Source of the DNA: Thoreauomyces humboldtii
Lineage: Eukaryota > Chytridiomycota > Chytridiomycetes > Spizellomycetales > Powellomycetaceae
NCBI GenBank assembly: GCA_027596035.1
Contig: JADGJA010000728.1
Span: 1-11,685 of the forward strand
DNA: 11,685 bases
Direction of reading: 5' to 3'
A program made the translations under genes and the position numbers. Position 1 is the first letter of the stretch, and each line of letters starts with the position of its first letter. A model generated the notes under the pieces. That model was not told the origin of the DNA, ran no database searches, and saw nothing but the letters and a program-made list of their open reading frames with translations. This document shows, piece after piece, positions 881 through 11,263 of this stretch.

Positions 881-3800
881 ATGAAAGCCTTGCTGCCGAT
901 TGCCGCGGGGCTCCTCTTTAGTGCAGGAACCCAGGGCCAAAACTACTATCCTGTCTATCCCTACTACTCCATCGTTTGGAACGACACGGCCTACAACGTC
1001 ACATGGGCAGCAACTCAGCCTGTCATCGGTTCTGTGCCGGAAAGTCCTTATCCATATCCGGTCGTGCAAGGTGGCGGAGAAGTCATGGTTCACCCGTACC
1101 CGAATTACGACTATGCCTGCTCGTACACCAACGCTGGTCAGGTACACAGAGGGACTTGTTCGTTAGGTGGAAGAGGGCGGGGAGATTACGGCGGTTGCGA
1201 GAAAAGGGCCGCGACCCTGCCATCGTCAACGACAACTGCCAGCATTCCATCTCCGACTCCAGTGCTTCGTCGATCCGACAGCGTAGTGGACACTTGCACC
1301 TTCCCCGTCCCCGGCTTTGTCGACGGGGTTTTCCAGCTTGGTGGTGGCGGCAACGCGACTGGAACTTGCTACACATATGATTCCTGGATCAGTTTCGCAT
1401 GGGATTGTCAGGCACTTGTTGCCAATTATGACTCCTCGGGACGGTTTCTGAATATGTCGCTGCAAGATGCTTCTTGCAGCGGCAGCTCCTACCGAAGCTC
1501 GCCTACTCCAGTGATATATGAAGTTATCTTCGAGTTTCCTTGCCAGCTTATCAGCGGGAATGCTACGGAAAGTCCTGTGACCAGGGTTTGCGCCTATGAA
1601 TTGGACGCGCTTGACGCAGATATTCTTCGCAGCTTTCCGAGCGAGCGCGTTGTGACCATGGGACTCTCCACCATGCAAATGACGTTCCCCATCAACACCA
1701 CGTGTGTGGCCTACGAAAACTTTGGTATCTATTGGAGCAACGTGTATTGTTTGGAGCCGTGTTACTACACGGCCACACAGTACACACCCTACGTTCAAAA
1801 TGTCGGAAACCAGATCGATGGGACGGCTTCCTATGGCTCGACTTGCCGGACGGACTGGTTTTACACCGAAGACGCGTTCAACCGGACAATTAAATGCGAC
1901 TGGCCCGTGAGCGGGTTGGTCGCCGGCCAGTATAACGGCACTAAAGTCATTTCGACAACCTGCTATCAGGAAACTTCGATTTGGGGAAGCAAGAATCTGG
2001 TCCAGCTGCCATGCTATCAATGGACTAAAGGCGTTGGATATGCAGCTATTACTTGCTCCGCGACGTACACGCCTCCTGTCAAAAACCGAATCTTCAGCTA
2101 CTCCCCATGCCAGCCGGACATTCCGGCCCTGTATGTGAACGGGATTCTCACGAAGCTGACGGTGAACTTGACATGTGCTACTTTCCTAACGGACGTTTGG
2201 GACTATGTAGATTTCACTTACAGCACTACCACATACAGCTATCCATGCCAGAGCAATCTGACCTTCGCAGCCGACGCGTCGATTACTGGATACGTCGATA
2301 CCACATGTCAGCAATTCATATACGGGAATGCTTCTTGGGATGATACGACGGTTGAGCGCCTCGTTGGTGATTCAGAGACATATAACCCGAGCGGCGTGTT
2401 CGACGGCTCCGCAACCGGTGGTAGTCAAGGAACCGCGGTAGTTTCGAGTTATTGGGTTTTGCCTTCCGTGACACATACGCTTGGTATCTATTCCGTGCAG
2501 TGGGCACTGCAAGTGTCACTCTGGGCCTTTCAGGTAAGCGGTTACCGGTTGCGGCAATTTTTTTACACATCGCTGACCCAATAAACAGTGCATTGGCTCT
2601 CCAACCTTCCATTCCGCAGTCTTCAATGGCTATGAAGTAACGGGGACCTTTCCAATCAACTCGACCCATTGCGGAGGTTACAGCTCGCTAGCCTCACCGG
2701 AGGCTGAGAATTTGATCTTATATCTCGCAGTTTGTGCGCCAGATCTCGCGGGTGCAGACGGACTGATGTTCTGCGAGATCGACCAGCCTCAACCGGGAGG
2801 CTTTACGTGCACCAGCCTGGGATGTATTGAGATCCCTGGTCAGTCTACAAAGACACAATGCACGTACGGTTGGAATGCTCAGCCTTGCGCGTTCACTATC
2901 GGCTACGACCTTTGCGTTGACAACTATCAGTACGATCCGTCCATGTTTAGCCACTTCAACGAGTGGAGCAACACTTCTATTATACAGCCAGCTCGCAGCC
3001 CCGCAAACGGTTCTTTCTGGTATCCTGGACAGCTTACCCTTGTTGCATCACAGTCCCTGATAGCCCCGACCTTGACAGTTCGCTCCGGGGAGTTTGACAT
3101 CAACCACACTATGTCTGGCGCTACGTGGATTGGGCCTTACTGGCCGGAGGTGGACACGAGAGACTCCATCACGCCAATTTATACATGGCCGTTCCCAAAT
3201 ACCGCTCCCGTTGCTTTTGGAACGGACGGAGCCACGCGACCGTGGTCAACGTTCCCATTCCTTCCATCCCACCCAATTCCTGTGGCGCCTCTGAACGTCT
3301 CGCTAGATTCCCAAATCGTTGGAGGTATTTACCCGTTTCCAGTCTGGCCAATGGTACCCATCAACGTCGCGCGGAACTGGAGTAGCCCCGTGCCTTGGAT
3401 CACGTTTCCATTTCTGAAGTACGAGGTGCAGGAGTCGGAGACCTGTCCGTCTCCTCCCGCGTCAGGAACTCTCTATCTGAGTACTACTGATTGGTCAAAA
3501 CAAAACAGGCAATATTATTACCCCGGAACCATTCCGACCCTCTCCGTGATCAACACAGTGTTAGAGGCTACTTTCCTGATGGACTCCTTCAACTGCTCGG
3601 ATGTTCCGAGTGATCCTCTGGTGTTCTGGACTTTCGACACCGCTGTGCTGACGTATGCTAGTCTACCTCAGCAGGAGTTTCGCCTTGAGGGGTATACAGT
3701 CGGTACTCATAATATATCGGCTCAAAGGGTTTTTACAAACTCTGCTGGATACGTCATCAGCACTGTCAAGGTCACGGCCAGCTTCTCAATTGCGCCGCCC

Positions 3801-6800
3801 CCGACGTTAAGTGCCAACTGGACATCCACAAACGCCACTGTGCCTACATGGCGAGTCATAACTTTGGACGCCTCGGCGAGCACGAATAGCTTGTTTCCCT
3901 GCACATTTGCGCGATATATCGGACCGCTCGCTGCGAGCGATAGCTGTTACGACCCGGTGACTAATATTGCCGCTGCGATTGTGGAGTTCGCGTGTACCAC
4001 GCGCGCTGGGGCGGCCTGTCCATTAGGACTTGCCAGCACGGTGACCATGGATGAGCTTTGGGGATTCGGCGGCCTGAGTCTGAGCAACGCCACTTTCACC
4101 GCGATGGTTGTGGAGACGACCAATTCATCGATCAAGATCTATACTGATACCCCCATCCTGGTCATACCTGGATTAGCCTTACCTGGCGATTTCATCTTCG
4201 AAACCGCGTATGAGCTGCCATTCCCCGACCTGGTGTCGCCCGTCTCACTTCCGCTTGAAATTACTGTATCCGCGCAAGCATCATATTGCGAAAATCCCCC
4301 CAGTGAAGGCTTGATGACATTTTCCGGACCTTTGGTGGCTGGAGCGACGGTGCCGACTTTTCACTTTTCTTCTGAAACTGGATATGCCACCGCCGCTGTC
4401 ACGCCTTTCACCTGTGCGGACGCCGTGGCTACCTACATCTTTTGGAGTTACGACGTTGTCGTAGTCGAAGCGCCGCAAAACCCTCTGTTGATTCAAACAG
4501 GGGAAACACGAACAGATTCTTTATCCTGGAGCACATCTCTCGCAAATGTTCTACCAGGGAATCACACGCTCAACTGCCGTATCGTCTATCTTTCGGCAAA
4601 CCATCAATATATTTCGTCAGTGGTGATAACTTCCGAGGTGGCCGTTATCTCTTGGACGTTCCACCCTGTATTAGCGACCGCGAGCCAGAAGATCTCGAAG
4701 GGCCAATCGCTGACGCTAGACATGACTGCGTCTTCCGACGACTTCGATCCATGCTATTTCCAAAATTATGTGAGCTCCGCTGCTTACAGCAGCTGCCAAG
4801 CGAACAATCCGAGTTCAACGGCATTCTCAGGATTCGCTATGATAATGTTCTCCTGCCAAACAACTGCCGGCAAGGCTTGTACAACATCTTGGAATTCCGG
4901 CGCATTGGAATCCTCCGAAGATTTCATGAAATACAGAAGCAATTCAAGCTACACGAACCTAGTTGATTTCTCTTACGAGGAGAATACTTTAATCATCACT
5001 GACATCCCATTCCTCACCATTCCGGCGGCCAATTTGCTGGGAGGGATATGCACTTGGGTCGCAAGCTACCAGTATGTGAATTCCTCAGGCTTCTGGATAG
5101 ATTCCATCCCAGAATCCACTGCTCAGCTTCAGATCATCGTCTCGGACTACATGGTGCTCGCGCCTCTTGAGCTTGGAACCGGGGCATCTACCTACATTAC
5201 TGGAGCTGTTGTCAGGATTATCGCCTCGACGACGACCGATTCACCGTTGTCTTCGTTGAGCTACAATTGGTCGGTTGTGGACTCCTCCGGAACGTCATGG
5301 AGCAGCACCATCGTCACAAAGACGGCCGGAACTGCCAATTTACGAGTCAACACCGCTACTATGACCAGCGGCACCTACACTGTTACGTTACTGGTAGCTG
5401 ATACTGACGGCCACAATGCAACAGCGAGTACTTCCTTCTCCGTCACAGCGGCACTGGTAGCACCGACCGCATGTGCGATCAGCCCATCGTCTGGTGTGGA
5501 GCTCGATACGACGTTTACTGTCACATGTCCGGATCCGGGCGGTCTGCTGTATGCATACAGCTATTTCGCAGATGGAATTGAAACAGTAGTCGCATATCCG
5601 GGATCAACGTCCCAGGACCTTCTCCTCCCATCCTCCACCAGCGGCACAGTCAACGTCTATGTTCGTCTCTACATCTCAGGTAATGCGGCCGCACAATCCG
5701 ACCCTCAAATCCTTCCGGTCACCGTCGCGGCCAGCACGGCCAGCGCGAGCGACCTTGCCAGCTCCGTGTCGAATCTCATCACCAACGGCAACGCTGCCCA
5801 AACAGCCGCAGCCGTAGACACTTTCGTCGGAAAGCTTACGGGTCTGAACATGAGCGATCCCGCCACTCAATCCATGGTCAATGGAGTCGTGAACGCGCTG
5901 ACTTCGTCCGTCAACAGCAACGAAGACGTCGGAACCGCTGGCGCACAGACGAACGCGATCGCCAAACTTCTCGCTTCGGGAGGGGTAGGAGACGACGGAA
6001 AGCGTGACGCCAGGGCCGCTATTCTTACTTTAGTCAGCGTTCTCGCTACTCCTGGGTACACCGTTCCCAAGGCTACGCTTGAGAGCGCCGCCAGCGGCTG
6101 TCTCGCATCTACTCTTGCCAACAGCACCGACAGCGGGGACGCAGTATTGCAGACTTTCGCCTACCTTGGCGTGGCACTGACCAACAGTCTTGCCACGGGG
6201 GAAAGCGATCAGCTTGCTGTCCTTGGTGTCCTGCTAGAAGCTTTGATGCTGGACCCGTTGGACATTCCCGACAGCATGACCAGTTCGTCACTCTCGAGAC
6301 GTGACACGACCTCATTGACCCCGTCGTGCGATGCGAACCTTGCGGGAACCCTGCCTGGGATTGTCAATGCTAGCAGGGTTGGCGCGGTTGTCACGATCCA
6401 GGCCAGCTGCCTTGCGCAGTCTCCGTACTTCATTGACCCGCTGGTTCTGCGGACGGATTCGCTACTGTGAGTTACTGATATTTGATTTGTTTTCGTGACA
6501 TGCCCGCTTGCTAAATAGCCCTCTCAATCCTCGCAGGCTGACGCCTAGCGCCTTGTCCCTCGGGGTTCTGGTCGACGGTACCAGTCTCCCCTCGATGCAG
6601 CTCCTCGACGAGAATGTGAACGTGACCATCCCGACCTCGTACTCGAGCCTGGGAAAGGTGACACGCCGGGACACCACCGTCGTATCGTACACAACTTCCT
6701 GCTTGCTGTGGAACTTGACGACTTCCGCCTGGTCGGATACCGGTTGCACAGCACTATCGACGGGCGTCAACAACACCGTCGCAACTTGCAGCTGTAGCTA

Positions 6801-7002
6801 CCTGGGGACGTACACCGTCCGGCTTACTTCTACGATCGTTGAAAACAAGACTCAGGGTAGCTCTGGTTTCAAGCTCACCGACCCAGAGCTTTACGGAATC
6901 ATCGCGGGCGGAGGTGCCGTTGTCGTCATCGCAGTGGCTCTCACCATCTTCTTTGTGGTGCGAAAGAAGAAGGCGAAGAAGTCTGACCACAGGAATGCTT
7001 AG
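881..7002 (+). CDS. Secreted single-pass REJ/PKD - GAIN/GPS receptor-like protein (1998 aa, 3 exons)
   Basis: Exons 881-2533, 2589-6466 and 6537-7002 join in frame to 1998 residues plus stop. The ATG at 881 is chosen because a clear signal peptide follows (MKALLPIAAGLLFSAGTQG); the frame extends slightly upstream without an ATG. Order of parts: Cys-rich short repeats (about 139-600); a Pro/Trp-rich stretch (about 700-830); two tandem REJ/PKD-like modules (about 837-1400); a further PKD-like beta fold (about 1405-1505); a helical GAIN subdomain A-like region (about 1599-1785); a GPS motif (1899-1940); a membrane helix (about 1962-1984); a tail of Lys/Arg. Many NxS/T sites indicate a glycosylated ectodomain. 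REJ, PKD and GAIN domains occur together in polycystin-1/receptor-for-egg-jelly proteins, which continue into several membrane helices; this one stops after one. Role inferred: cell-surface adhesion or recognition. The ligand is unknown. Confidence 0.85.
1290..2690 (+). repeat. Diverged Cys repeats in the N-terminal ectodomain of the REJ-GAIN protein
   Basis: About eight units share one layout: a Cys, often after Pro or Lys, a hydrophobic/Gly stretch of roughly 10-30 residues, then (T/N)xTC or a close variant. Examples begin TCTFPVPG, FPCQLISG, KCDWPVSG, LPCYQWTKG, SPCQPDIP, YPCQSNLT and CIGSPTF, and several end TTC or LTC. Intron 1 falls in phase 0 exactly before the Cys of the last-named unit. 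I do not recognise the family; the paired Cys suggest one disulphide per unit. Confidence 0.5.
2534..2588 (+). other. Intron 1 of the REJ-GAIN gene (55 bp, phase 0)
   Basis: Donor CAG|gtaagc, branch-like ctgac at 2572-2576, acceptor aaacag|TGC. Unspliced reading ends at a stop inside the intron. After removal the upstream frame joins the 3.9-kb downstream frame and the Cys-repeat pattern continues. Confidence 0.85.
3444..5140 (+). repeat. Two tandem REJ/PKD-like modules (~282 residues each)
   Basis: Module 1 opens at the Cys codon at 3444 (ETCPSPPASG) and module 2 at 4287 (ASYCENPPSEG), 281 codons apart. Each then has a C-x-D block followed by FW(T/S)-D/Y, a Gly-x-His-x-(I/L) turn, and a second half starting LDASAS (3864) or LDMTAS (4716), 284 codons apart. 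The second half continues with a PC-F block, a (V/F)(A/S)C-T-AG--C core, and a (P)-L-IP- strand near the end. The Cys-rich LD-S-S start is typical of REJ modules (PF02010-like). Divergence is high, so the duplication is old. Confidence 0.65.
5730..6466 (+). other. GAIN subdomain A-like helical region of the REJ-GAIN protein
   Basis: An Ala/Ser-rich, beta-poor stretch (ASDLASSVSNLITNG, then several amphipathic helices) lies between the last PKD-like fold and the GPS. This is the place and character of the helical half of a GAIN domain. The linker carries an SLSRRD dibasic motif near 6291-6305. Confidence 0.55.
6467..6536 (+). other. Intron 2 of the REJ-GAIN gene (70 bp)
   Basis: Donor CT|gtgagt, branch-like gctaaat at 6510-6516, acceptor ctcgcag|G. 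Splicing restores a Leu codon from CT+G and joins the frame that carries the GPS and transmembrane parts. Reading through hits TGA at 6468. Confidence 0.85.
6700..6825 (+). other. GPS motif with altered cleavage tripeptide
   Basis: Cys1899-LLWN, then W-SDTGC, then TCSCSYLGTYTV match the GPS consensus (C-x-x-W...W-x-x-x-G-C...C-x-C-x-H-L-T/S). The tripeptide at 1932-1934 is Tyr-Leu-Gly, so both the general-base His and the Ser/Thr nucleophile are missing. Gly-Thr follows directly, so a shifted nucleophile cannot be excluded. Confidence 0.75.
6889..6957 (+). other. Transmembrane helix of the REJ-GAIN protein
   Basis: About 23 hydrophobic residues from LYGIIAGGG to IFFVV (residues about 1962-1984) are followed by RKKKAKK, a stop-transfer signal, and then only a few more residues before the stop at 7000-7002. 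Confidence 0.85.
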
Positions 7003-7321: not shown

Positions 7322-10300
7322 CTACACCCTCGTATCCGGATCCAGCGGGGAAGAAGGATCCACCTCGTCGTCGGAATACGCGCGCGACCGTATCCGTATG
7401 TCAGGTACCTCAGCACCTCCCACATGCACGTTCCCGTCCCTCGACTTCCCGGCCGCTTCGTTCATGTTTGTGGCGGACGGGACGGAGTGCACGGGTCGAT
7501 TCATCTGCCCGACTTCGGGCCGTTGGAGTCCCAGTTCTTTGAGTTTGGAGTCCGCGAGAAGTTTCTGCTTGTAATAGTGGTGCTTGAGGGAGAACCAGCC
7601 TAGGGTTTCTTGGATGTTGACGGCGAACTTTTTGAGACAAGGTTGGGGTCGTCAGTAGAGGGAGGAGTGCAATGCGTCTGAGTGAGTAAGGGAAGTACTC
7701 ACCACGAGACAATTGAATCCGAATGCGAGAAGAAGCGTGAGACTATTCCCGGAACCGAGCTCACGAGCGACGAGAGCGTTTACGATGAGCATGGGGATCG
7801 ACTTGAACACCCCGGGGCTTCATACCAAGTCAAACAGAAAAAAGAAAAGGTGATCAGACTCGCGCTTCCCTTTTCAGCGTAGAAAGATTTAGGAGGGGTC
7901 TTACATGGCAACAGCGATAGTGACGACGACTTTCTGTCGAAGGGTTCGGAGATTGAGTAGTACCATATGAAGATCGGCGTCGCTCTCGGCATCCTTGATC
8001 CTCGCCAAGGCTTCCACTGAAGTGATCTTTGCACCGGCCGCGATCAACTTGACGCCCTCCTTTCGGATCTTGAGCATCTGAACAATGTTGTAGGTACGGA
8101 TCACGGCCGAGAGGAACGTGATCACACTCTGGAACAGACAGGAAGCGATGAACACGAGCTTATATTTGTCATCGGATCCGACCGCCAGGAATGCGTGCCT
8201 GTCAGGAAACGTGAGTGATTGTGATGTTTGTTGAAATAAGAAGCAGTCCATGCAGGTGAGCCTTACCAGTCAAGGAAACACTCGGCGCTGTCCAACCCGA
8301 TTTGTATCAGGCTGTGGATGACGTCTTGTATCAGGCGTTTCATGGCGACATCCGCTTTGAGTTTCTTGTGCTTCTGAATCCCCAAATGCCTGCGCTTGAT
8401 TAAAGCCATGCGTCGTCTGACATACAAACACTTGATCAGCATTTCTCTCCTGGATAATTCAATTCGGAACTGTTGTAGCCTACCGATAAACGTAGAAGGC
8501 GACACCTCCTCCTACTACGAGGACACCGACAGCGATGCCCGCAATCGGTCCTGCTTGCGATGTCTCGCTGGCTGATAATCATACCGAGTCGGGTGTTAGC
8601 AAAGCCTCAGTATTCTTTGCAGTCATCGGCGCTCACAAACTGCTCTTTAGAACACTTACGAAGACATAAAATCCCGTTATATATGTTTCCACTCGGACAG
8701 GCGCACTTTGTCGGATCCGTAGACACACGGCCCCCGTCACATTCAAGACATTTCGAACCGCCCGTTCCAGCGCTGTACGTTCCAGACGCACAGGCGGTGC
8801 ACGTTTCGGACCCAGTGCTGAACGCGATCTCTCCCATCGGACATGCCGTGCATGACGTGGCTCCCTTGGCCGCCGAGGTTCCTATCGGACAGGCTGTGCA
8901 TGTGCCGCTGGAGAGGAGATACCCTCCGGGACATCCGGCGTCGCTTGTGAAGGCCATGGTGAGGCCGGAGCCGGTCAGGGGACGATTGGATGTGAAGCGG
9001 ATCGTGAGGGATGCTTGGTTCGGAATCCCCACGGACGTTGGGAGAGTCGTATAGTTTGCTGCAACCAGCCCGGTTTGAGATGTCACTGGTGGGACAAGGA
9101 CGAGAGCCAATGTAGTTGGGTCTCTGATGTATAGGACATCGGTCGATGGATCCAGGGTAAAGTTCGAGAACGAGATATAGATCGAAAGAGCGGCTGTGGT
9201 TGGCGTTATCGTCCAGGTCAGATCCGTAGAATGACGATAGCCTACCGAATTGTGATGCTATAGAGTCAGCGATGCCAATGATAGCTGCTGATTAACAAGC
9301 AAGTTTGACTCACCTCCATCGCACGGATCCACTAGGGATCCCGAGTTGGCCGTGCTCGTCATAGTCGAGAACACGCATGATCCCACTAATGGTGGCGACA
9401 ACCCCGAAGCAGTCGGGGCGGGATAGGCCAACCGTCCTGGCACGGGAGCTGGAAGACCCAGCGGAATCGCAATGCTGGAAGCGTTAAGGTAATTCCTAGT
9501 GACGATGTCCAGCTGAGCTCCTTGCAGAAACACGGCGATCGCTTTCGCCCGAAGCATTGTATATCCATCGCCGCCACCCATCATGTAATCGGTCACGCAG
9601 AGGTTGTACACGGTATCGGGTCCCATGTCGACGTAAGCGTTCGTGGTCGTGTTCAGGATCTTGACTGACACGAGGCGATTTGGGGAGGTGTTATTCGGGT
9701 TGTAAACCACCTGAAGGTTTGAGACCTGCGGAAACGGTCCGGCGGAGGCTTCGGGTGATACATGTCCGAAGCCGTTTCGTAGGGCATCAAAGATGTCTGC
9801 ACCCTTCAAGCTCGTGATGGAGATAAAGTTCGCGTTCGGCAGCATGGACTTCACCTGCTGGCCGGAGATCACACCGGCATTGATGGAAGCTCTGATCGTT
9901 CCTCCGTTTAATATTGCGGCATCGCACTGTGATCCCATCTGCCACATCATCGCGTCCACGACGACATCTCCGGCCGTGCACTCCACCGCTCGACACACGT
10001 AGACCGATGCGGAGTTCTTTTGCGCTCCATTAAGGAAAGTTTGGGTCTTACCGATCTGGCCGGCGAGAGCGGCGTTCGGAAGGAGACTGTCGGCGGTGAC
10101 GGCGGCAAGGACAGTCGCATCTGGGGGCACGCAGGTAGAAAGAGGCGTCAAGTCATCTTGACAACTGATCACGGGATTGAGGGTTCCAGTCCATGCCACC
10201 GGCACGTTATTTGTGAACTGTACGTCCAGCTGAACCAGTCCGTGGATGTCAGAGGTCACGAAGTCGTTGTATAGGAGCACCGGATCGCCTGGGACGAAGA

Positions 10301-11263
10301 TAAGAGATCTGTCGAAACAACCGCGGTCATCGACAAACCACCTCACCTGCAGGATTCCGCACCATGGTCGGTAAAGCGCCCGCAGCCAGCTGGTTCGAGT
10401 CCGAGGATATGATGATGTCGATGCCCGAAATACTTTGCGCCACGACCAAGTCATCTGCCCAGAGGAGTCCACTCGAGAGGGCAACGACGACATCCGGAGC
10501 CTCCACGTACATGAGCTCGTCCATGAAGTTAGCCATGTCCACCAGGACGTCTTCGATCTTGATGTAGGCGGTCGTCCCGACGGGATCAGCACACATCGTT
10601 AAAGCGCAAAGATTGTCTACCACGTAGGCGATGATGACGACTTTATACGTCGTAGACGTAGCGTGGTCAGTGAGCATCAGAACTTGGTACGGCTTGACGT
10701 AGCCTGACAGGGGGAGAGACTTTGCGATGAGGACGTTGGAAGCGACGCAGTGGAGCGAGCTGTTTGACAGAAAGTTGCTTGCATATACATCGGGCCCGAA
10801 GAATAGATCTCGAGAGCCGAATGTTAGGTATTGGAAGCCGATGTTCTCGAGGTATGTATGCTCCTTGCGTCCTAATCGCCAACTGATCTCAGCTACCCGG
10901 TGACAGCCTCGGCTTTTTTGGTGTCGGTTCCTCACCCTGCCAGTACTGCGTGAAGACGCTGAATCCAAGAGCAGTGACGCCATGGAGAGCTATGACCGGC
11001 TTTGATCCCAAAGCTGTCTACAAAGCAAGCTGGGATACTTTAGCGACAAGCGTGACGATGAGGACAGATCCCTCCCCTACCGTCGCACTATGCATGGCAG
11101 TTTGGAATGCCGCATATCCGCCGTAGTTCCTGATGTACTGGGAGGATCCGGTGGGCGTCAGTACCGTGTAGTTTGGGGACACCAGAGACGAGCTCAGTAG
11201 GGTGAGGTTGAAGGTCGAGGCATTGACCCCAGCGAGGAAGAGGAGGAAGACGGTCGCCCACAT
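7322..11263 (-). CDS. 5'-nucleotidase-like pseudoenzyme receptor: signal peptide, nucleotidase fold, CUB-like, Cys-rich, 4 membrane helices (1099 aa, 10 exons)
   Basis: Inferred exons: 11263-11081, 11017-10936, 10871-10347, 10288-9314, 9241-8660, 8571-8484, 8416-8267, 8198-7905, 7817-7703 and 7627-7322; total 3300 nt, all phases consistent. A signal peptide (MWATVFLLFLAGVNA) follows the ATG at 11263. Residues about 18-295 align with the metallophosphatase domain of ecto-5'-nucleotidases and 343-515 with the C-terminal nucleotidase domain. Next come a CUB-like domain (589-688), Cys-rich GCC2/ephrin-receptor-like repeats (688-781), a first membrane helix (789-811), an Arg/Lys-rich linker, three further hydrophobic segments (about 876-896, 952-976, 985-1003) and a charged tail. 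All metal-site residues look replaced, so hydrolysis is unlikely; nucleotide binding may remain. The frame is intact over ten exons, which argues against a decaying pseudogene. Exon 1/2 joining is the least certain step. Confidence 0.8.
8096..8158 (-). other. Second membrane helix candidate of the nucleotidase-like receptor
   Basis: LVFIASCLFQSVITFLSAVI (about residues 876-896) is flanked by Lys/Asp on one side and Arg on the other. A charged helical linker (about 897-951) separates it from two more hydrophobic segments, 952-976 (with IPMLIVNALV, spanning an intron) and 985-1003. Confidence 0.55.
8486..8554 (-). other. First transmembrane helix of the nucleotidase-like receptor
   Basis: GPIAGIAVGVLVVGGGVAF and flanking residues (789-811) lie on their own 88-base exon and are followed by RRR and other basic residues, a stop-transfer signature. 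This exon comes into frame only with splices 8659-8572 and 8483-8417. Confidence 0.8.
8660..8942 (-). other. Cys-rich GCC2/GCC3 (ephrin-receptor-like) repeats
   Basis: Repeating CPGGYLLSSGTCTACPIG, CTACPMG, CTACASGTYSAG and KCLECDGG units match the C-x-x-G-(T/x)-...-C-x-x-C pattern of GCC2/GCC3 ephrin-receptor-like domains. They form a stalk between the CUB-like domain and the membrane. Confidence 0.8.
8945..9241 (-). other. CUB-like domain
   Basis: The exon opens G-Y-R-H-S-T-D-L-T-W-T-I-T-P, then I-x-I-S-F-S-N-F-T-L-D and D-V-L-Y-I-R-D, and later L-T-I-R-F-T-S-N. These are the diagnostic strands of CUB domains (GxYxxN-x-W-x-I, FxxFxLE, Y-x-x-IxDG, F-x-SD). The usual Cys pairs are absent. 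The intron at 9313-9242 puts the domain boundary exactly at an exon boundary. Confidence 0.65.
9534..10052 (-). other. C-terminal 5'-nucleotidase domain with conserved nucleoside pocket
   Basis: CRAVEC (362-367) matches the Cys-Arg...Cys loop of vertebrate CD73, LNGGTIR (390-396) keeps the Asn and Arg of the NGGGIR motif, PFPQVSN (448-454) keeps the first stacking aromatic, and GGDGY (502-506) keeps the second. The PFGN loop is altered to LPNAN. Confidence 0.8.
10196..11212 (-). other. Metallophosphatase-fold N-domain with all catalytic motifs replaced
   Basis: Strand and loop order follows 5'-nucleotidases: LTLL-SSSLVS (22-29) for the TNDxH motif, NYGGYAAF (46-53) for GGxAR, IALHGVTALG (70-79) for GDxxxG, TFGSRDLFFG (105-114) for LGNHEFDxG, ALSSG (219-223) for LxHxG, and IDIIISSDSN (239-248) for VDxIxGGHSH. 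No metal ligand is retained in any of the five motifs. The last three motifs lie in one uninterrupted exon, so splicing errors cannot explain their loss. Confidence 0.75.

Follow-up and report, generated by a model that had tools for sequence, protein, structure and literature searches.

A Probable Receptor-Like Pseudoenzyme on the 5'-Nucleotidase Fold in the Chytrid Thoreauomyces humboldtii

Gene model and overall features

What role can a protein with the fold of a 5'-nucleotidase have once its catalytic center has been replaced? The locus raising this question is a gene on the minus strand (7322..11263) of an 11,685-bp window from the soil fungus Thoreauomyces humboldtii (Chytridiomycota, Spizellomycetales, Powellomycetaceae), which represents one entire contig of the assembly (20.7 Mb in 823 contigs). 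For the interval 9534..11212, which corresponds to residues 18–515 of the encoded protein, a first-pass annotation made from the sequence alone had proposed that the two-metal site is erased and the nucleoside pocket kept, and had suggested a pseudoenzyme receptor for extracellular nucleotides or nucleosides. The analyses described here lend good support to a receptor-like pseudoenzyme, and nucleotide sensing by its ectodomain appears plausible from the sequence.

The gene consists of 10 exons separated by nine GT-AG introns of 58–88 nt and codes for a protein of 1099 amino acids, which is 100% identical over 100% of its length to the NCBI entry HKX48_008161 (hypothetical protein [Thoreauomyces humboldtii], 1099 amino acids). 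Versions of intron 1 with a length of 30 or 21 nt were rejected; the 63-nt version reproduces the NCBI protein. The splice model yields exactly the residue numbers given in the first-pass annotation for the catalytic side (Leu27, Ser29, Val75, Ser108, Arg109, Phe112, Ser221, and Asp246) and for the substrate side (Arg363, Asn391, Arg396, Phe449, and Tyr506). Together with five others, the protein forms a family that spans four genera and five species, namely T. humboldtii, Geranomyces michiganensis, G. variabilis (two proteins), Powellomyces hirtus, and Spizellomyces punctatus. The members have the same layout and the same losses, and their identity to the protein of the window is 48–56%.

Loss of the metal site and catalytic dyad

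Structure prediction indicated a two-lobe 5'-nucleotidase fold over residues 15–555, with the Thermus 5'-nucleotidase (2z1a) and CD73 as the nearest solved structures. Profile searches, which had been proposed as a check together with the first-pass annotation, matched the C-lobe family 5_nucleotid_C (E 4.6e-30, 105.3 bits, Pfam cut-off 23.6), to which all six family members also match at E ≤ 0.1. The N-lobe family Metallophos had no match at E ≤ 1 in the protein of the window and, at E ≤ 0.1, none in any of the six. The intact paralogue served as positive control: its main exon alone, which lacks the first motifs, reached 23.8 bits against a cut-off of 21.5. The degenerate metallophosphatase-like N-lobe (residues ~17–320, 10119..11215) was recognized by profile search, alignment to CD73, family alignment, and predicted structure.

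In the phmmer alignment to CD73 (6xuq), the metal-ligand and catalytic positions pair with the eight catalytic-side residues listed above. A second alignment combined the six family members with 24 enzymes of Bacillota and one intact chytrid paralogue. In its first-motif columns, which could be read in only five members because the G. michiganensis protein lacks the N-terminus, Asp is replaced by Leu, Gly, or Ala, and His by Ser or Asn. Each of the following columns is changed in all six members: Asn to Ser or Thr, His to Arg, Asp to Phe, and a further His to Asp. The motif GNHEFD has accordingly become G[S/T]RD(L/F)F (residues 108–112, 10801..10815), where Arg109, Asp110, and Phe112 are fixed in 6/6 members, and Asp246 (10399..10401) stands where CD73 has the metal-ligand His243, again without exception; Ser221 is likewise fixed. 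The counterpart of the GD motif (CD73 Asp85) is G74-V75 in the CD73 alignment and, shifted by one position, T76 in the combined alignment, neither Val nor Thr being a usual ligand. All seven scoreable catalytic columns are lost throughout the family, compared with 47 of the 81 N-lobe columns that are invariant in the enzymes (p 0.018); the eighth, His220, falls into an alignment gap and was not scored.

Alternative exons that restore the catalytic motifs, a case raised with the first-pass annotation, were rejected on the basis of a regular-expression scan of the three minus-strand frames between 9200 and 11500, which revealed no GNH[E/D]-, GGHS-, AGDxx[QSTG]G-, or THxG-type stretch. The same scan gave three DxH-type matches, two of them out of context and one within the protein (SDIH, residues 276–279). 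The loss of the catalytic motifs claimed beforehand is borne out by the CD73 alignment, the family columns, and the absent Metallophos match. The ligand set and the dyad are replaced, but the statement that none of the residues is competent was slightly too strong, as Asp246 could in principle bind a metal.

Retained substrate contacts

In CD73, the adenine is described as stacked between Phe417 and Phe500, the ribose as held by Asn390 and Asp506, and the phosphate by Arg354 and Arg395 (PMC8677862). According to both alignments, the counterparts of these six residues are Asn415, Tyr498, Asn391, Asp504, Arg363, and Arg396, respectively. The phosphate contact Arg363 (9990..9992) lies within Cys362-Cys367, and Asn391 and Arg396 belong to the NGGxIR motif (9891..9908); all three are present in 6/6 members, as the first-pass annotation had led one to expect. 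Tyr498 and Asp504 (9567..9587) correspond to the stacking Phe500 and the ribose-binding Asp506, Asp504 being an additional retained contact not named before. Asn415 (9834..9836) stands in place of the nucleobase-stacking Phe417 in all six members. The pocket chemistry is thus kept at five of the six positions in every member, position 498 being Tyr in five proteins and Phe in one. Only Phe417 is lost, which leaves the pocket with a single stacking ring next to its contacts for phosphate and ribose. The aromatic pair Phe449/Tyr506, to which the clamp had been assigned, turned out to be other conserved aromatics. The earlier notion of a kept nucleoside pocket hence holds for Arg363, Asn391, Arg396, Asp504, and the aromatic residue 498, but not for the other stacking Phe, which is Asn throughout the family.

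The polar substrate contacts are kept in 4/4 cases (p 0.012), or in 4/5 when the lost Phe column is counted (p 0.047). Among the enzyme-invariant columns, 12 of 81 are kept in all members in the N-lobe and 17 of 48 in the C-lobe (residues ~342–555, 9414..10055; Fisher p 0.009), the number of invariant columns being inflated by an enzyme set that consists mostly of Bacillota.

Conservation and distribution of the family

Because six proteins of five species share the loss together with fixed replacements, the evidence speaks against random decay as the cause of the catalytic loss, as far as sequences can tell. Whether the loss is shared and conserved among homologs, a question left by the first-pass annotation, can hence be answered in the affirmative. 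The family has so far been seen solely in the Spizellomycetales within the searched collection, an order to which Geranomyces, Powellomyces, and Spizellomyces also belong.

The first homolog search (7985 candidates scored) retrieved at least four proteins, three of the family and one bacterial 5'-nucleotidase (E 3.8e-11). An alignment-based search (7987 candidates scored) retrieved at least three proteins, all of them already found, and three known family members did not appear in it. A search with the C-terminal part, which covered all 6937 candidates that share exact words and have ~0.55–1.75 times the query length (~600–1920 amino acids), yielded 20 proteins including the six family members. 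Each of the other 14 carries Ephrin_rec_like, with 15–43% of the query covered, and for this reason they were read as probable matches to the Cys repeats; over its length, the membrane module was matched in this search only by the six family members. This module is the most conserved part of the protein, with a mean pairwise identity of 0.70–0.73, compared to 0.52–0.58 for the ectodomain domains, 0.40 for the linker helix, and 0.27 for the tail.

Two members show peculiarities of their own. In the last ~100 residues of the P. hirtus protein, a repeat resembling KKKGRATYLAQMKR and unseen in the other five occurs several times, and the database model of G. michiganensis, which lacks ~70 N-terminal residues, is probably a truncated gene prediction.

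Predicted receptor-like membrane architecture

A receptor layout consisting of signal peptide, ectodomain, and transmembrane segment is indicated by hydropathy and structure models. The putative signal peptide (residues ~1–16, 11216..11263) was recognized from a hydropathy peak at residues 5–23 and from the sequence itself. The two lobes are followed by a predicted beta-rich extracellular domain (residues ~560–690, 8937..9401) that may resemble CUB and matches no family above cut-off, and by Cys-rich ephrin-receptor-like repeats (residues ~691–783, 8570..8936; Ephrin_rec_like, 29.4 bits, cut-off 23.1) that are matched in 6/6 members at E ≤ 0.1. A first transmembrane helix (residues ~790–812), which is followed by the basic stretch RRMALIKRRH and lies with it at 8416..8551, was identified by hydropathy and structure models. 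It precedes a four-helix membrane or juxtamembrane module (residues ~829–1029, 7535..8367), which lies within the most conserved stretch and for which no clear solved relative was found. The C-terminal tail (residues ~1036–1099, 7325..7516) is variable and was predicted with low confidence, as seen from conservation and the structure model.

Four clear membrane hydropathy peaks were detected (792–810, 877–895, 954–972, and 985–1003), and the helix at 829–866 is a possible fifth. The four long helices after the first transmembrane segment are predicted to pack as a bundle, and five crossings would place the basic stretches after the first, third, and last helix all on the inner side. G-protein-coupled receptors have seven transmembrane helices, and here five long helices are predicted and four clear peaks seen; a weak 7TM_GPCR_Srd match was obtained in two of the six members (best E 0.016), and no family of such receptors exceeded the Pfam cut-off in the protein of the window. 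Cys177, 182, 306, 316, and 385 are invariant in all six members, besides the CxxxxC pair, and may form family-specific disulfides.

Proposed function and rival explanations

The pseudoenzyme reading of the first-pass annotation is strongly supported, the loss being shared and conserved, and the context is receptor-like (signal-type N-terminus, Cys-rich stalk, transmembrane segment, and conserved helical membrane module). We tentatively prefer, at somewhat less than an even chance, a cell-surface pseudoenzyme receptor that has lost the two-metal center and the dyad, still has the residues that contact phosphate and ribose along with one face of the clamp, and acts as a ligand-driven switch. Beyond the gene, the motif loss, the retained contacts, the conservation, and the predicted fold and membrane architecture, all shown above, we infer a course of ligand binding, closure, signaling, and action on an effector as follows. 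The C-lobe would bind a small ligand that carries a phosphate, in the simplest case a nucleotide or ribose phosphate, its phosphate held by Arg363 and Arg396 and the ribose that it probably has by Asn391 and Asp504, with Tyr498 as cover. A large lobe rotation, as described for CD73, where it closes the protein on the substrate (PMC8677862), could then serve as a clam-shell switch that is driven by the ligand and not ended by hydrolysis, and the Cys-rich stalk would relay the change to the membrane module. A bolder version, which we put forward with considerable doubt, is that chytrids have a previously undescribed class of receptors for extracellular nucleotides or ribose phosphates, with a metal-free clam-shell that senses but does not hydrolyze, a membrane module without recognized relative, and possibly a salt bridge between Arg109 and Asp246 that replaces the two-metal center and reads the phosphate.

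Some observations weigh against a nucleotide-driven receptor. The two-aromatic nucleobase clamp is incomplete (Phe417 to Asn415 in 6/6 members, with Tyr/Phe498 kept), and the Asn in place of the stacking Phe would weaken nucleoside binding of the kind performed by CD73. The retained C-lobe residues could be structural, given the p-value obtained with the lost Phe column included. Furthermore, profile and structure-sequence searches found no intracellular signaling domain of known type. The main rival is a receptor-like pseudoenzyme that now binds protein or polysaccharide, as an adhesin or as a matrix or prey-surface receptor, the nucleotide pocket being a structural relic. Such a role, which we consider possible although on the doubtful side, would fit the beta-rich domain and Cys repeats adjoining the ectodomain, the clamp residue lost in all members, the lower conservation of the ectodomain than of the membrane part, and the neighboring REJ-GPS gene (see below), which is likewise of the surface-recognition type. 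The tsetse salivary 5'Nuc also binds a protein, GPIIb/IIIa, though with its catalytic residues kept (PMC2843633). Against a relic speaks that four polar contacts and an aromatic residue are kept in 6/6 members, whereas of the 48 C-lobe columns invariant in the enzymes no more than 17 are kept in all.

An intact 5'-nucleotidase is encoded elsewhere in the genome (C456:23366-26821, minus strand; TNDIHAH, DAGDQFQG, GNHEFD, LSHNGY, and GGHSHS), and the phosphatase function is therefore covered. Its presence would also suit an inactive partner that dimerizes with, regulates, or anchors an active 5'-nucleotidase or another surface protein, and so would the catalytically dead regulators of active paralogs described in PMC5201418 and the report that CD73, unlike its bacterial homolog, is not monomeric (PMC8677862). 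We regard this as unlikely, the identity to the intact copy being 24% (main-exon translation), which leaves no obvious basis for a common dimer interface. Still less is to be said for a binding domain that feeds its ligand to its own membrane module as a nucleoside or phosphate transporter or channel instead of relaying a signal. The multi-helix module is the most conserved part, as this would demand, but no transporter or channel family exceeded the Pfam cut-off in any of the six family members. Sequences of solved structures gave one weak match (the EphA2 transmembrane peptide, E 0.075) and no transporter or channel. A five-helix module is also small for known transporter folds. That the protein is no pseudoenzyme at all, owing to wrong exons or to hidden catalysis at a rearranged metal site with Asp110, Asp246, and other acids, is very improbable. 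Both Asp residues are indeed fixed in 6/6 members, but Arg109 takes the place of the catalytic His just as consistently, the same replacements occur in five other database proteins of related species, and the minus-frame scan found no stretch restoring the motifs.

Relation to known systems

The protein shares with CD73 (NT5E), the Thermus enzyme 2z1a, and UshA the two-lobe fold, the 5_nucleotid_C family, the CxxxxC motif with its Arg (CD73), NGGxIR, GGDG, and the phosphate and ribose contacts. It differs from CD73 and the bacterial 5'-nucleotidases by the replaced metal-ligand set and catalytic His/Asp and by Asn for clamp Phe417. In CD73, the C-lobe is followed only by a short stretch with a glycosylphosphatidylinositol signal, whereas here ~545 more residues follow, with a stalk and 4–5 membrane helices. 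With pseudoenzyme receptors in general it has in common the reuse of an enzyme fold without chemistry. Among the matches listed in the literature searched, neither an example of a pseudoenzyme receptor on a 5'-nucleotidase fold nor a description of inactive or pseudo 5'-nucleotidases or nucleotidase-like receptors was found. The nearest published added role found for the 5'-nucleotidase family is the platelet-integrin binding of the tsetse 5'Nuc, which resembles the present protein as a 5'-nucleotidase-family member with a protein-binding role. It is portrayed in PMC2843633 as a soluble saliva protein with catalytic and substrate residues kept; the saliva protein chrysoptin of the deerfly is mentioned there as well. 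In both, protein binding occurs besides or instead of chemistry, and a membrane module is lacking. The component ideas (fold and pseudoenzymes) are known; what looks new is that they are combined here and that this has been conserved in four genera.

To our knowledge, the extracellular-nucleotide sensors of animals and plants are proteins unrelated to nucleotidases, and little is known of zoospore chemoreception in flagellated fungi. P2X receptors belong to a protein class unrelated to the 5'-nucleotidase fold. Their presence in basal fungi was reported by Cai 2012 (as cited in PMC3410928), and they are comparable in their possible sensing of extracellular nucleotides; a search for P2X in the T. 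humboldtii genome gave no match, the control likewise matching nowhere. If the enzyme that ends purine signals has been turned into a sensor, this would constitute a direct route from signal-terminating enzyme to receptor in flagellated fungi. Even with another ligand, a membrane-anchored pseudo-5'-nucleotidase kept over four genera provides a clean test case for a fold without chemistry, and one of its bearers, S. punctatus, has a sequenced genome.

Genome context and neighboring gene

With the own membrane module and that of S. punctatus as queries, only the gene itself was found in the T. humboldtii genome, short exons limiting this search; Ephrin_rec_like was found nowhere else in the genome. 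A repeat region rich in Ser, Gly, and Pro (PSGxPSYPHGS type) comes before the intact 5'-nucleotidase on C456, which is perhaps wall- or matrix-associated. The neighboring gene in the window (~881–7002, plus strand) has a signal-type start and codes for a long Cys-rich ectodomain with REJ (E 1.2e-11) and GPS (25.3 bits, cut-off 22.5) matches, a PKD-like stretch under cut-off, a single transmembrane segment, and a short basic tail. Its features point to a polycystin/adhesion-type ectodomain, here without the channel part and in a fungus. REJ occurs at three places in the genome, the other two being located on C457 and C180.

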